A stretch of DNA of 44,024 nucleotides from Bacillota bacterium. Lineage in GTDB: Bacteria; Bacillota_I; Bacilli_A; Erysipelotrichales; Erysipelotrichaceae. The notes beneath the pieces were generated by a model that was not told the DNA's origin, did not search any database, and worked only from the letters and a program-made list of their open reading frames with translations. Position numbers and translations under genes: made by a program. The DNA lies in the NCBI GenBank assembly GCA_023249475.1, contig JAHFCO010000010.1, positions 1-44,024 of the forward strand, written 5' to 3'. Shown here piece by piece: positions 33,750 through 37,543 of the stretch (positions are counted from its first letter, which is position 1; each line of letters begins with the position of its first letter).

Positions 33750-33823
33750 GCAGGTGTAGTTCAATGGTAGAACGCGACCTTGCCAAGGTCGACACGGGGG
33801 TTCGATTCCCCTCACCTGCTCCA
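33750..33823 (+). tRNA. tRNA-Gly (anticodon GCC), used as integration site
   Basis: Acceptor GCAGGTG/CACCTGC, anticodon arm CGACC-TTGCCAA-GGTCG with GCC, T loop TTCGATT, discriminator T and encoded CCA; 74 bases. Its last 17 bases are repeated at 35154 and 35993, which marks this gene as the attachment site of the elements downstream. The gene itself is intact. Confidence 0.95.
33807..33823 (+). repeat. Attachment-site core, copy 1 (3' end of tRNA-Gly)
   Basis: The 17 bases TCCCCTCACCTGCTCCA here are repeated exactly at 35154-35170 and 35993-36009. They cover the 3' half of the T stem, the acceptor stem and CCA, the usual crossover region of tyrosine integrases at tRNA genes. Confidence 0.8.
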
Positions 33824-33832
33824 ATGTAATTT

Positions 33833-33857
33833 AGGCCCATTTGATGGGGCTTTTTTT
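33833..33857 (+). terminator. Terminator of the tRNA cluster
   Basis: AGGCCCA pairs with TGGGGCT with one G-G mismatch, then seven T. A very similar hairpin follows the third core copy at 36019. Confidence 0.65.
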
Positions 33858-33950
33858 GCTTTGAAAATGCATCTTTCTTACAGAATCATATAAAACAAAT
33901 CAAACATAAGTCCAGTCATTCTCGACCATCTATGCGAATCTTTCTCATGA

Positions 33951-33956
33951 TACAAT
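33951..33956 (+). promoter_or_regulatory. Extended -10 box of the element A gene
   Basis: TGATACAAT, an extended -10, 45 bases before the ATG at 34002; no clear -35. Confidence 0.45.
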
Positions 33957-34001
33957 ATTGGTGACATAAGAGTTAATCTCAAAACACAAGGAGGGGTTGA
34001 A

Positions 34002-34775
34002 ATGATTGCGCGAATCAAAAATAATGCAGAATTTATAAGAAAACGTCGACCTCTAAATTCAGGATATAAAGAAGAAGTTTGTTTAGGTGTTTATGCTGTT
34101 ATAGAGTCAAAAGGATTACTAAAAACACATAAAGACGTTTTGTCATATACAAATTTTGGCTTTTTGTATCTCAGTTTTGATGAGATAGAAATTGTGGACG
34201 ATTCTATTCCGAGTGGATGGATTGAAATGAATCAAAAAATGAAATCAGAGAGTAGCTATGAACCTGGAGTATGGAAATTCGATAGATATCTAGGACCAAA
34301 AGAGTTTATGGAGAATCCACGTTGTTTTCGGGATTTTATGATTAACGATTCATGTGACGAATTTTTTAGAGAGTATTTAAGAAAGAATGATATTATTCAT
34401 TCAGGTGGCTTTTGCCCCAACGCTATCTTGAAATTGAGTTCTTCGCTAGATATTTTGGAAGTTGAGAAAGTGATACAGGAAACAGCTTCATTGGAACTAC
34501 TTGACTATTCTCTCTACATTCAGCCAATCGGTCATGAAGAATGTTGGAAAAACTGCGCTAAGGTAATTGAACTCGCTAACGATCGAGACTTATATGTATT
34601 TGTTCCTAGACTCCTTGGGTGGATTAAGAATCTTGAAACGCCTGGTGCCAGGATTATTTTTGATCGATTGAGAAAAATGTCTCGAGATTCAATTCAAACC
34701 GACTTGTACAACGCAATGGAAATAGCTATTACCAAAAATAATCAGGTTTGGTTCGAAAATTTGATGAATATATAG
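34002..34775 (+). CDS. Unknown protein with DUF5071-like C-terminal part (element A cargo)
   Basis: The 257-residue soluble protein has no signal peptide. Its last 70 residues ('LYVFVPRLLGWIKNLETPGARIIFDRLRKM') resemble DUF5071-type domains, in which a 'W..D...PGA..I...L' pattern is typical; such small domains are common among immunity-like and orphan accessory proteins. The N-terminal part ('GYKEEVCLGVYAVIESKGLLKTHKDVL') is unrecognised. The gene is AT-rich, unlike the backbone, and has a strong AAGGAGGGG ribosome site. It is the only clear gene of the element. I do not assign a function. Confidence 0.6.
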   Translation: MIARIKNNAEFIRKRRPLNSGYKEEVCLGVYAVIESKGLLKTHKDVLSYTNFGFLYLSFDEIEIVDDSIPSGWIEMNQKMKSESSYEPGVWKFDRYLGPKEFMENPRCFRDFMINDSCDEFFREYLRKNDIIHSGGFCPNAILKLSSSLDILEVEKVIQETASLELLDYSLYIQPIGHEECWKNCAKVIELANDRDLYVFVPRLLGWIKNLETPGARIIFDRLRKMSRDSIQTDLYNAMEIAITKNNQVWFENLMNI

Positions 34776-35040
34776 TTTTTTTGTTAGTTAAGAACATTGA
34801 AGATACTTCAATTGAGGTCCTACATTTACTTCTCCTAAAAGCCACGATCCTAACAATCTTAAGATATGGTTATGAGTCGGTTACGGCTGCAATGAAATCG
34901 AATGAGATCATATGGGTTCTATGATAATCTAACCACAAAGAAACACATGTATAGGCATTAAATGCAACTAGACGAATGATTTGTGAACGCCAATCATCCG
35001 CTCCAAAATCTTGAGTATTCACTGTTTTAAATTTAATCGC
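34776..35040 (+). other. Gene-poor stretch of element A
   Basis: No gene of normal length. A second frame that overlaps the end of the upstream gene stays open to the TGA at 34922-34924. Read from a TTG at 34781 it gives 47 residues (about 'LLVKNIEDTSIEVLHLLLLK'), which look protein-like. It could be the remnant of a C-terminus lost to a frameshift, or chance. Confidence 0.35.
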
Positions 35041-35170
35041 TGACTATACAACTGACTATACAATTCGTTTATCAACTGAATTGAATAGAAGGAAACAAAA
35101 GGATTTGGGGTGATTTAGAGGAAATAATAAAGTTTGACACAAAAACAACTAAATCCCCTCACCTGCTCCA
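35041..35170 (+). repeat. Element right-end repeat, copy A (130 bp)
   Basis: It begins with TGACTATACAA twice (35041-35051 and 35053-35063), continues with an A-rich stretch and TGACACAAAAACAA, and ends with the 17-base tRNA core. It aligns without gaps to 35880-36009; by hand count about 110 of 130 positions match. The paired motif looks like integrase arm-binding sites beside a core site. Confidence 0.75.
35154..35170 (+). repeat. Attachment-site core, copy 2
   Basis: Exact copy of the last 17 bases of the tRNA-Gly gene, without the rest of the tRNA; junction between the two stacked elements. Confidence 0.8.
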
Positions 35171-35180
35171 GCCTAACAAA

Positions 35181-35206
35181 AAAGCCTCTCACGAGGCTTT
35201 TGTTTA
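35181..35206 (+). terminator. Terminator after core copy 2
   Basis: AAAGCCTC, TCAC loop, GAGGCTTT, TTGTTT. It is close to symmetric and could also end the leftward gene of element B (stop at 35221). Confidence 0.75.
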
Positions 35207-35220
35207 TTCATGGGACCTAA

Positions 35221-35793
35221 TTAGCATCCAAATGCAGAAATGTTCTCTCGAATGTAATGGGTAATTTTCTGACTTAGATCTATCTTATCCGAAACAGTAA
35301 TAAATTCATTCGTCAACACTTCCAGTGGATCGTCGTTATAGGACTCAATGAAACTTTCAATGGTTCCATCATCGAGGGCTTCGTACCTGCCTTTATTTCC
35401 GGAAACAATTTCTAGGGACTTCTGGATTAGTTGACTTAATTCGGGCGATTTAACTACTTCATACCCTTTCACACATAAATGAACATAGTGCTTTGTATCA
35501 TTAAAGTATACTTGATTCAAACCACCGTTCATCACTTCATTGTTTACCGTGTAACAGGAGTAAGCTATTTGAACAGGCTCGGGTAGTTTTGTTATCTCCC
35601 AATTCTCACTTGATAATTTGTTGAGAGTCCAATATAGCATTGCATCAAGTAGTTCATTGTTAGGTAATTTTGCAAAATCAGCTTTCGATATTTTGTTGAA
35701 TCGAAGTTCATTATCTTTGATATTGTTAAAGAATGCTTGCTCAATATCTGTCGGTTTTTTCTTCTTGGGTTTAATGAAATTGAGAAGTCCCAT
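35221..35793 (-). CDS. DUF4375 (DMP19-like) family protein (element B cargo)
   Basis: The 190-residue soluble protein matches the DUF4375/DMP19 pattern: 'YSCYTVNNEVMNGGLNQVYFNDTKHYVHLCVKGYEVVKSPELSQLIQKSLEIV', where 'NGG..Q.YFN' is the family signature. The Neisseria member DMP19 mimics DNA and binds a repressor; most members have no known role. The start has GAGG upstream. The gene is AT-rich, lies alone inside element B and points toward the tRNA. The N-terminal 'FIKPKKKKPTDIEQAF' is basic and differs from the core family. Function unknown; a role in host or phage control would fit its mobile setting but is speculation. Confidence 0.7.
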   Translation of the reverse strand: MGLLNFIKPKKKKPTDIEQAFFNNIKDNELRFNKISKADFAKLPNNELLDAMLYWTLNKLSSENWEITKLPEPVQIAYSCYTVNNEVMNGGLNQVYFNDTKHYVHLCVKGYEVVKSPELSQLIQKSLEIVSGNKGRYEALDDGTIESFIESYNDDPLEVLTNEFITVSDKIDLSQKITHYIRENISAFGC

Positions 35794-35879
35794 TAGTTAT
35801 ACCTCACTGAAACCATTGTATAACAAATCCCTATAATGTGGAGGAAAAAGTGGTTTTAAACCTCAATCAAAAAACTGCC

Positions 35880-36009
35880 TGACTATACAATTGACTATAC
35901 AATTTGTTAAAAAATCAAATTGAATGGAAGGAAATTGAAGGAATTGGGGTATTTTAGAGGAGATACTAATGTATGACACAAAAACAATTAAATCCCCTCA
36001 CCTGCTCCA
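35880..36009 (+). repeat. Element right-end repeat, copy B (130 bp)
   Basis: Second copy of the repeat at 35041-35170, with TGACTATACAA at 35880-35890 and 35892-35902 and the tRNA core at its end. Confidence 0.75.
35993..36009 (+). repeat. Attachment-site core, copy 3
   Basis: Exact copy of the last 17 bases of the tRNA-Gly gene. The sequence after it resembles that after the intact tRNA (AATGT, then AGGCCC...GGGGCT hairpin), so this may be the original chromosomal end of the tRNA gene pushed away by the insertions. Confidence 0.8.
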
Positions 36010-36018
36010 ATGTCATTC

Positions 36019-36042
36019 AGGCCCTTAAGATGGGGCTTTTTT
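36019..36042 (+). terminator. tRNA-type terminator after core copy 3
   Basis: AGGCCC pairs with GGGGCT with the same single G-G mismatch as the hairpin at 33833, then six T. Probably the original terminator of the tRNA-Gly transcript. Confidence 0.6.
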
Positions 36043-36251
36043 GTGTCGTGATGATTTCACAATTAGCTATTGCGTTTAAAAGTGATTTTTCATATATTTA
36101 TTGTAAGTATTGCCTGCACAGAGAGAAGTGTAAAAAGGTTGTAAACAGGTTTATAAATGGGAAAAGAGATTAACGAAAACATCTTCTATTGTTTTGATTG
36201 TAGATTAGCTTCAAATACCATTCAAACAAGAAAGATTGACACCAGCTTAAG

Positions 36252-37079
36252 GTGCAAAAGGGGAAAACACGATTGAATATTGAAGATATTCTGTCAGCCG
36301 GATATGAGATGAAAGCTGCTGAAAAGGGTAGTTGGAGAATATATGATGAAGAGAATCCCATACCTGGATATTTTGAGTTTGATTGGCTAAGCAGCCGGTT
36401 TCCCGATCTTTATCATGAATTTGCCATATCGACCATTGGACTAGTAAACAAACTACATACGATCATCGACTTCTCGGAGATGCATGTTTTGGATGTAGGA
36501 GCCGGGACCGGAAGATCTTCTATTGAATTATCGAAAAGAGCGAAAAAGGTCAATAGTACAGATGTCTATCGTTCGGTGATCAATTTTGGAAAAAATGAAA
36601 TACAAAGATTAGGCATTCAGAATATTGAATACACATATGGTGATCGTGATAAGCTTCCTTTCGCTGATAATAGCTTCGATGCTGTGATTTTTTCATGGGC
36701 TGAACCAAATTACATAGAAGCATATCGTGTGCTGAAGAATAATGGATATATTATTCAAATGGCATCCATACCTGAAGCGATATGTGGCGAGATAACCGAT
36801 GTCTTACATGGGACAAATAGTTATGATCAGAAAATATTCCTCTCAAGTTATCCTGACGAATTTGAACAAAGAGACAATACAGTCTTTTCAAGTATTCCGC
36901 TTGTTGGTTTGGTTGATGTACATCGCTTCACTTATTTGTCAAAGTATAAGTCAGTTGAAGAATTGGCATCAATTGTAGGCCGTCTTTATGGACCGAAAGC
37001 AAAAGAATATTTCACAACGCGTAAACAAGATACGTATTCATGGAGAAATGAAATACGAATCGGTCAAGTTCTGAAATAA
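36252..37079 (+). CDS. Class I SAM-dependent methyltransferase
   Basis: Up to 275 residues from a GTG at 36252; a TTG at 36273 (MNIEDILSAGYEM...) with AAGGGGA about ten bases upstream is an equally good start. Motif I 'MHVLDVGAGTGRSSIELS' binds SAM, 'KKVNSTDVYRSVINFGK' has the acidic residue after strand 2, and 'LPFADNSFDAVIFSWAEPNYIEAYRVLKNNGYIIQMA' covers motifs II-III. It fits the UbiE/Methyltransf_11 type acting on a small molecule; the substrate is unknown. AT-rich like the elements upstream, so possibly also acquired. Confidence 0.75.
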   Translation: MQKGKTRLNIEDILSAGYEMKAAEKGSWRIYDEENPIPGYFEFDWLSSRFPDLYHEFAISTIGLVNKLHTIIDFSEMHVLDVGAGTGRSSIELSKRAKKVNSTDVYRSVINFGKNEIQRLGIQNIEYTYGDRDKLPFADNSFDAVIFSWAEPNYIEAYRVLKNNGYIIQMASIPEAICGEITDVLHGTNSYDQKIFLSSYPDEFEQRDNTVFSSIPLVGLVDVHRFTYLSKYKSVEELASIVGRLYGPKAKEYFTTRKQDTYSWRNEIRIGQVLK

Positions 37080-37543
37080 AGGCTAGAGCTACTATATTTT
37101 GATTACAAAATGGATAAGAAGATGATCGAAGGAAACTTGAAACTACAGTCATCATCGAAAGAGTTCAAACCAGTTTTCATGGCCTAGATCCGACTGCGTT
37201 AGAATGAATGATCTTGTCGATCTTGAGCATTCATTTCTCTCTCGATTGGTCACCAAACATAGTGTTACGATATGTCCGTGTTACTGGAACGAGCGCACTA
37301 GAAGATTCTGAATATAGTGTTAAGATGACAGCACATTAAGAATAGTCCAAGTTGACAAAGGAAAGTTGAAGATGCGTTGTTTTTTAGTTCGAAATCACGG
37401 GTTGGATACGTCGGATCGACAGATCAAACCCGTTTTTTATTGTAGAAAAACCGATACAAATTCTTCAAAGAGATGAAAAATCACATCCTCAATTCTCTCA
37501 AAAAAAACACGGTTTACCCCCGATTTCCTCTAAATCCAGAGTT
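37080..37543. other. Intergenic region, no gene seen
   Basis: About 460 bases without a plausible reading frame, AT-rich, holding one terminator-like hairpin at 37397-37438. It may contain decayed element DNA. Confidence 0.5.
37397..37438 (+). terminator. Terminator-like hairpin
   Basis: ACGGGTT and AACCCGT pair around a 23-base loop, followed by six or seven T. It could end the methyltransferase transcript or separate it from the downstream carbohydrate gene. Confidence 0.5.

Follow-up and report, generated by a model that had tools for sequence, protein, structure and literature searches.

Organization of the tRNA-Gly(GCC) locus

The window, that is, the whole stretch of 44,024 nt that was analysed, contains a tRNA-Gly(GCC) gene with tRNA-Ser and tRNA-Asp genes ahead of it. 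The last 17 bp of the tRNA-Gly gene, TCCCCTCACCTGCTCCA (the core), were found in three exact copies on the forward strand, starting at 33807, 35154, and 35993, as the original prediction had claimed. There was neither another exact copy on this strand nor a copy on the reverse strand in the window, in which approximately 5e-6 occurrences of TCCCCTCACCTGCTCCA would be expected by chance. The three copies delimit two tandem segments of 1347 and 839 bp, here called cassettes c1 and c2, and analysis of open reading frames bore out that each segment has one clear gene and that neither encodes a recombinase. The coordinates of all features are given in Table 1.

Table 1. Features of the tRNA-Gly(GCC) locus and of cassettes c1 and c2 (positions in the window).
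Feature	Position	Strand	Remarks
tRNA-Gly (anticodon GCC)	33750–33823	+	Target gene; ARAGORN
Core copy 1	33807–33823	+	3' end of tRNA-Gly and left boundary of c1; exact repeat
Cassette c1	33824–35170	+	1347 bp, 34% GC; between core copies 1 and 2; missing from the empty site of G001
c1 left end	33824–33858	+	Intrinsic-terminator-like hairpin without P-arm sites; 35 bp aligned to the native flank of G001
c1 cargo gene	34002–34775	+	257-aa orphan protein; single clear ORF of c1
Vestigial tRNA-Gly(TCC)-type core	34989–35005	+	Just upstream of the c1 arms; counterpart in phage G063
c1 right end (P' arm type)	35040–35170	+	Core copy 2 included; 83–85% to c2 right end and phage G063 attP
c1 direct arm-type sites, two copies of TGACTATACAA	35041–35051, 35053–35063	+	-112/-100 from the core
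Core copy 2	35154–35170	+	Exact repeat
Cassette c2	35171–36009	+	839 bp, 35% GC; between core copies 2 and 3; missing from G001
c2 cargo gene	35221–35793	-	190-aa DMP19-like protein; PF14300, E = 1.6e-16
c2 right end (P' arm type)	35879–36009	+	Core copy 3 included; 83–85% to c1 right end and phage G063 attP
c2 direct arm-type sites, two copies of TGACTATACAA	35880–35890, 35892–35902	+	-112/-100 from the core
Core copy 3	35993–36009	+	Distal boundary of the array; exact repeat
Native flank	36010–36052	+	Like the sequence directly after tRNA-Gly(GCC) in G001

A sharp drop in base composition had also been noted at the tRNA gene. The GC content indeed fell from 54% ahead of the tRNA to 34–35% in the cassettes, but it remained at approximately 37% onward to about 37350, and the composition edge therefore does not mark the edge of the array. 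The native flank beyond core copy 3 showed 93% identity with that of G001 over 61 bp, core included. Just beyond the array, low-GC DNA of approximately 1.3 kb, which is extra relative to G001, contains a methyltransferase gene (275 aa, 36252–37079). We considered 36053–37349 as a third cassette and rejected it, because it has neither a distal core nor a right end.

The 257-aa protein of c1 had no match in Pfam, PHROG, PADLOC, or NCBIfam, no relative among the viral contigs, and no plasmid match. In 273 genomes of the family there were weak partial matches at most, and structure prediction gave a mean pLDDT of 36, too low to be of use. The DMP19-like protein of c2 had no relative among the viral contigs and no PDB match by sequence.

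Conserved right ends with arm-type sites at fixed spacing

The common end of about 130 bp that had been suspected proved to be real: 35040–35170 and 35879–36009 showed 85% identity over 131 bp, and each begins with the two direct copies of TGACTATACAA. Between the right ends of c1 and c2, none of the 39 positions in the arms and the core differed, compared with 20 of the 92 positions elsewhere (Fisher p = 0.0008). In most of the other right ends found, the arms stood at the -112/-100 offsets seen in c1 and c2. When 50 cores were examined, an arm was located at -100 in 19 and at -112 in 15, and other offsets were nearly empty. An alignment of 13 right ends, taken from several genomes and phages, had no gaps over 131 columns and showed a mean pairwise identity of 0.90 in the arms, 0.91 in the core, and 0.52 elsewhere. 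The right-end sequence model R1 matched in 8 of the 273 family genomes. The right ends of some relatives had degenerate or single arms. One in G288 (L199:4704–4822) had its arms at -102/-90 in place of -112/-100, a shift of 10 bp or about one helical turn.

Another right end, with TGACCATACA arms and the core CCTGTTGTCGGCACCA, was observed on contig C27 of G001 (L195:1984–2118), which suggests yet another tRNA target. The viral contig L091, in which triple arm-like motifs stand behind a different integrase, was set aside, since it has no tRNA-Gly core and carries unrelated phage genes. Pattern matches in Paenibacillus, Neisseriaceae, Bacteroidales, and others were likewise set aside; five of them were examined, and the arm-plus-core architecture was present in none.

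Empty sites and related cassettes

The original prediction had called for an empty site in a relative and for sites with one or other cassettes. Both were found, and other or variable cassettes proved abundant at this tRNA gene and at further ones. In G001, which belongs to the same genus as the window (Erysipelotrichaceae bacterium UBA12416; contig C41, DOUE01000044.1), the site at tRNA-Gly(GCC) is empty, and ATGTCATTCAGGCCC..., the sequence that follows position 36009 in the window, stands directly after the tRNA gene. A cleaner pair of empty and filled sites was provided by another genus. G284 has one core and an empty site, and G288 has two cores; identity between their flanks is 97% on one side and 95% on the other. 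In the filled site, a 2045-bp cassette without an integrase has been inserted precisely between the core copies. The insertion is site-specific and accompanied by duplication of the core.

In the genomes compared, mostly MAGs with broken arrays, we found 17 bounded cassettes of 348–7352 bp at tRNA-Gly(GCC), tRNA-Gly(TCC), and tRNA-Ser(GGA). Besides c1 and c2, the 12 tRNA-Gly cassettes were those of G001 (4062 and 3641 bp), G288 (the 2045-bp cassette and others of 1602 and 348 bp), and G026 (3748 and 1141 bp), and single cassettes of G061 (1613 bp), G066 (3149 bp), and G287 (1548 bp). The 3641-bp cassette of G001 carries a bacteriocin-type operon with an ABC exporter and a DUF1430/bact_immun_7tm-like protein. 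G026_c2 and G288_d1, cassettes from different genomes, share an 81-aa gene at 82% identity. The cassettes at tRNA-Ser(GGA) in G026 (1531, 1868, 7352, 2247, and 2881 bp), some of which have other right-end types, belong to a parallel family with the core TCTCATGTCCTCCGCCA in G026, G001, and G288 (L236, L237, L055, and L200). Where arm sites were found in this family, they read TGACCATACAA, one base off TGACTATACAA, and stood in the same -112/-100 geometry. One cassette of the family contains a vitamin B6 operon of the PdxS/PdxT type together with transporter genes.

A search of the 17 cassettes with an integrase HMM detected no integrase (best E = 0.55), and the positive controls scored 1e-53 or better. 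In the 12 tRNA-Gly cassettes, tblastn comparison with seven phage sequences gave no match, and there was neither a phage gene nor internal phage sequence. What these cassettes had in common with the phages was the ends alone, up to 181 bp on the right and approximately 140 bp on the left. The longest stretch, that between c1 and G063, reached through the vestigial second core.

Temperate phages with the same attachment ends

Temperate phages emerged from a pattern scan that covered viral contigs and species genomes. In these phages, the 131-bp end was located beside an integrase gene, as had been anticipated. The right ends of c1 and c2 correspond to the P' arm of a temperate-phage attP, with 83–85% identity to that of G063 (IMG/VR 3300025600_000074). 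The attP of G063 and G064 contains the same arms and core, and beyond these come a terminator, a further pair of arms, and the integrase gene; the P arms of the phage left ends lie at +58/+69 or +70/+81. The integrases are of 355–369 aa (355 aa in G063, at L092:12499–13566, and in G064) and contain PF00589 and an N-terminal PF14657 domain (Arm-DNA-bind_4). G063 carries a terminase gene as well as the integrase gene, and its core fits tRNA-Gly(GCC). More generally, the nearest att ends were those of temperate phages, in which genes for terminase, tail, and repressor proteins are present. Integrase-bearing elements were found behind tRNA-Gly(CCC) in G060 and behind tRNA-Gly(GCC) in G065, and their integrases showed 82 and 81% identity, respectively, with that of G063. 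G064, the integrase of which showed 57% identity with that of G063, and a prophage of G288 use tRNA-Gly(TCC).

The genome to which the window belongs (G000, 96% complete) encoded no G063-type phage integrase. Its PF00589 proteins were two Xer-like recombinases, which matched the phage integrase weakly (E = 3e-7 and 1.6e-4).

In both c1 (34989–35005) and phage G063 (L092:13887, reverse strand), a vestigial TCC-type core stands upstream of the GCC-type right end and may be the record of a switch in integration specificity. An accessory cluster adjoins the right end of phage G061 (L141:3468–8312) and encodes a DUF4238-Pers-like protein, an AAA ATPase, and an MT-A70-like methyltransferase, a possible defence cargo. 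A protein of the tRNA-Gly(TCC) prophage of G288 (L241:10538–11980) matched the PADLOC model DitA (E = 1e-149). Within the larger tRNA-Gly elements of G060 (L138:13737) and G061 (L141:3237), tRNA-Ser-type cores with left-arm sites were observed, so these elements are nested or composite.

Left ends of the cassettes

Unlike the phage left ends, those of c1, c2, and the cassettes G061_c, G066_c, G287_c, and G288_c had no P arms; left arms were present in some cassettes of relatives (G001_t3 and G288_d1). The first 35 bp of c1 matched the native flank of G001 position for position (score 50; best internal control 30). The left end of G288_c gave a 67-bp match to the spacer between tRNA-Gly(GCC) and tRNA-Gly(CCC) in G026 (56 vs 26), and those of G061_c and G287_c matched the flank beyond their own array. 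For the left end of G066_c, there was no host-flank match. Because the left ends of several cassettes match host tRNA flanks, these cassettes probably originated by aberrant excision that circularised prophage attR together with adjacent host DNA. In its simplest reading, this suggests that some cassettes are P'-core-B' circles produced by aberrant excision across attR.

Positions 1–652 of c2, which comprise the core, the terminator, and the DMP19 gene, were collinear with the DNA behind tRNA-Gly(CCC) of G288 and G284, where a DMP19 homologue lies at an equal distance from the tRNA gene. The collinearity yields to the P' end at position 709 of c2. A search of G284 for the decayed remains of a right end beyond the DMP19 gene was negative. 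The DMP19 gene in these two genomes, which has no right end there, may be native host DNA, which would make it the donor, or it may be a decayed cassette.

Many integrases require both arms. Since P arms are missing from the left ends of c1 and c2, both copies may be one-way elements or may already have lost their mobility.

Proposed mechanism and alternative explanations

The sequence comparisons support the proposal that these are non-autonomous cassettes, and their movement by an integrase encoded elsewhere would take place in trans. We consider it probable that c1 and c2 are minimal non-autonomous att cassettes, which phage integrases would have inserted in trans and which would have accreted in tandem. 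Each cassette would consist of one gene flanked by tRNA-Gly cores and a phage-type P' arm with two arm-binding sites. The tyrosine integrase of a temperate phage, supplied in trans, would bind the arm sites and join the core of the cassette, presumably in a circular intermediate, to the 3' end of tRNA-Gly or to the core of a resident cassette. Repeated insertions would give a tandem stack in which the tRNA gene remains whole and is given its terminator by the left ends of the cassettes. Some cassettes would have formed when aberrant excision circularised the attR of a prophage with the neighbouring host DNA. A wider version of this scheme, which we regard as doubtful, is phage-driven gene capture, in which aberrant excision at attR would unite the P' arm of a prophage with a neighbouring host or phage gene in a one-armed P'-core-B' circle, and such circles would be inserted repeatedly behind tRNA genes by the integrases of resident or incoming phages, resulting in integron-like single-gene arrays without attC or a dedicated integron integrase.

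The ends of the cassettes are clearly of phage origin, and phages of the G063/G064 type might instead have integrated serially and then decayed until nothing but their att ends and a single accessory gene close to attR was left, in which case c1 and c2 would be scars and not mobile units. This would be the classical route of CIMEs, in which deletion precedes accretion. Phage G061 does have accessory genes beside its right end, the homology of c1 to G063 spans 181 bp and includes the vestigial second core, and P arms are missing from several cassettes, all of which fit such decay. This explanation is weakened by the missing internal phage sequence and the host-type left ends: no phage gene, internal phage sequence, or integrase remnant was present in the 12 tRNA-Gly cassettes, and several left ends fit host flanks and not phage left ends, which simple deletion would not yield. 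Furthermore, the cargo includes whole operons atypical of phages, such as the bacteriocin operon with its ABC exporter in G001, and the insertion polymorphism is clean at approximately 96% flank identity. We therefore judge prophage scars to be unlikely.

Catalysis might also be assigned to the host rather than to a phage, with a XerC/D-like protein or the 448-aa tyrosine recombinase of G000 moving the cassettes as in Xer-exploiting elements; the Xer-like proteins were, after all, the sole PF00589 proteins found in that genome. However, the recombination sites are not dif but the 3' ends of tRNA genes, combined with arms of the phage type; phages encode cognate arm-binding integrases beside identical sites, and the host proteins resemble the phage integrase weakly, as described above. 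A role of these recombinases thus appears very improbable. Hardly credible is the explanation that homologous recombination simply duplicated the 3' end of the tRNA gene in tandem and that unrelated genes lie between the copies. A duplication of this sort would yield direct repeats after the tRNA gene, but it is contradicted by the comparison of empty and filled sites, in which foreign DNA was gained; moreover, the segments are unrelated apart from the 131-bp end, and the arm spacing is fixed across genera.

Insertion of the cassettes by phage integrases would, if confirmed, mean that the integrases of temperate phages are general cassette recombinases in Erysipelotrichaceae, and that single genes and short operons spread with approximately 130 bp of attachment DNA. 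The cargo spread in this way would include bacteriocin operons, DMP19-like and orphan proteins, and sensor and vitamin genes. In related bacteria, similar cassette arrays stand at further tRNA genes, and small genes therefore appear to travel on borrowed phage integrases. Because the cassettes have no hallmark gene, they are missed by standard mobile-element finders; the fixed arm geometry offers a simple search handle for them, and the one-armed ends offer a way to test the minimal attP that an integrase needs.

Comparison with known systems

The cis-mobilizable elements (CIMEs) of Streptococcus, of the ICESt1/ICESt3 type (PMC5704250), resemble c1 and c2 in several respects. In scans with Pfam, PHROG, and NCBIfam, c1 and c2 also had no integration or transfer genes, and they are bounded by cores and arranged in tandem behind the target gene. 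However, CIMEs keep the parental attL and attR, whereas in c1 and c2 the core at the left end is not accompanied by P-arm sites. In addition, CIMEs derive from ICEs or IMEs, whereas the cassette ends described here belong to temperate phages; no ICE or IME with a right end of the c1/c2 type was found in the collections scanned. The cassettes also differ from CIMEs in their size of 0.35–7.4 kb, in their content of mostly one to four genes, and in left ends that are partly host flank.

Arrays of core-flanked cargo behind an RNA gene are likewise known from the ssrA islands of Dehalococcoides, of which McMurdie and colleagues reported 15 without an integration module (PMC3146451). Those islands involve a serine recombinase (DsiB), a tmRNA target, and reductive dehalogenase operons, with no phage-type arms described (PMC3146451), whereas the targets here are tRNA-Gly and tRNA-Ser and the candidate helper integrases are tyrosine recombinases. 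Conceptually, the cassettes are similar to CALINs, which are integron cassette arrays without an integrase (PMC11389934), in that single-gene cassettes stand in arrays and would be mobilised by an integrase encoded elsewhere. They are set apart by the architecture of their boundaries, which are tRNA cores and double-stranded direct arm sites at fixed offsets and not attC. With the phage satellites compared, namely PICI, PICMI, and tycheposons (PMC10803314, PMC11389934), they share the location at tRNA genes and would share the dependence on temperate phages; in contrast to these satellites, c1 and c2 carry no integrase, regulator, or packaging gene, and 839 bp is far below satellite sizes. Neither c1 nor c2 contains the phage genes that would place it among prophages or their remnants.

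A limited search of the openly searchable literature brought up no account of comparable single-gene cassettes with phage att ends. The suggestion that they form a distinct cassette-accretion system was nevertheless too strong, since integrase-less, core-flanked islands that accrete behind an RNA gene have already been described (PMC5704250, PMC3146451). What is unusual in the present case is the minimal one-gene size of the cassettes, the phage origin of their ends, and the missing P arm.
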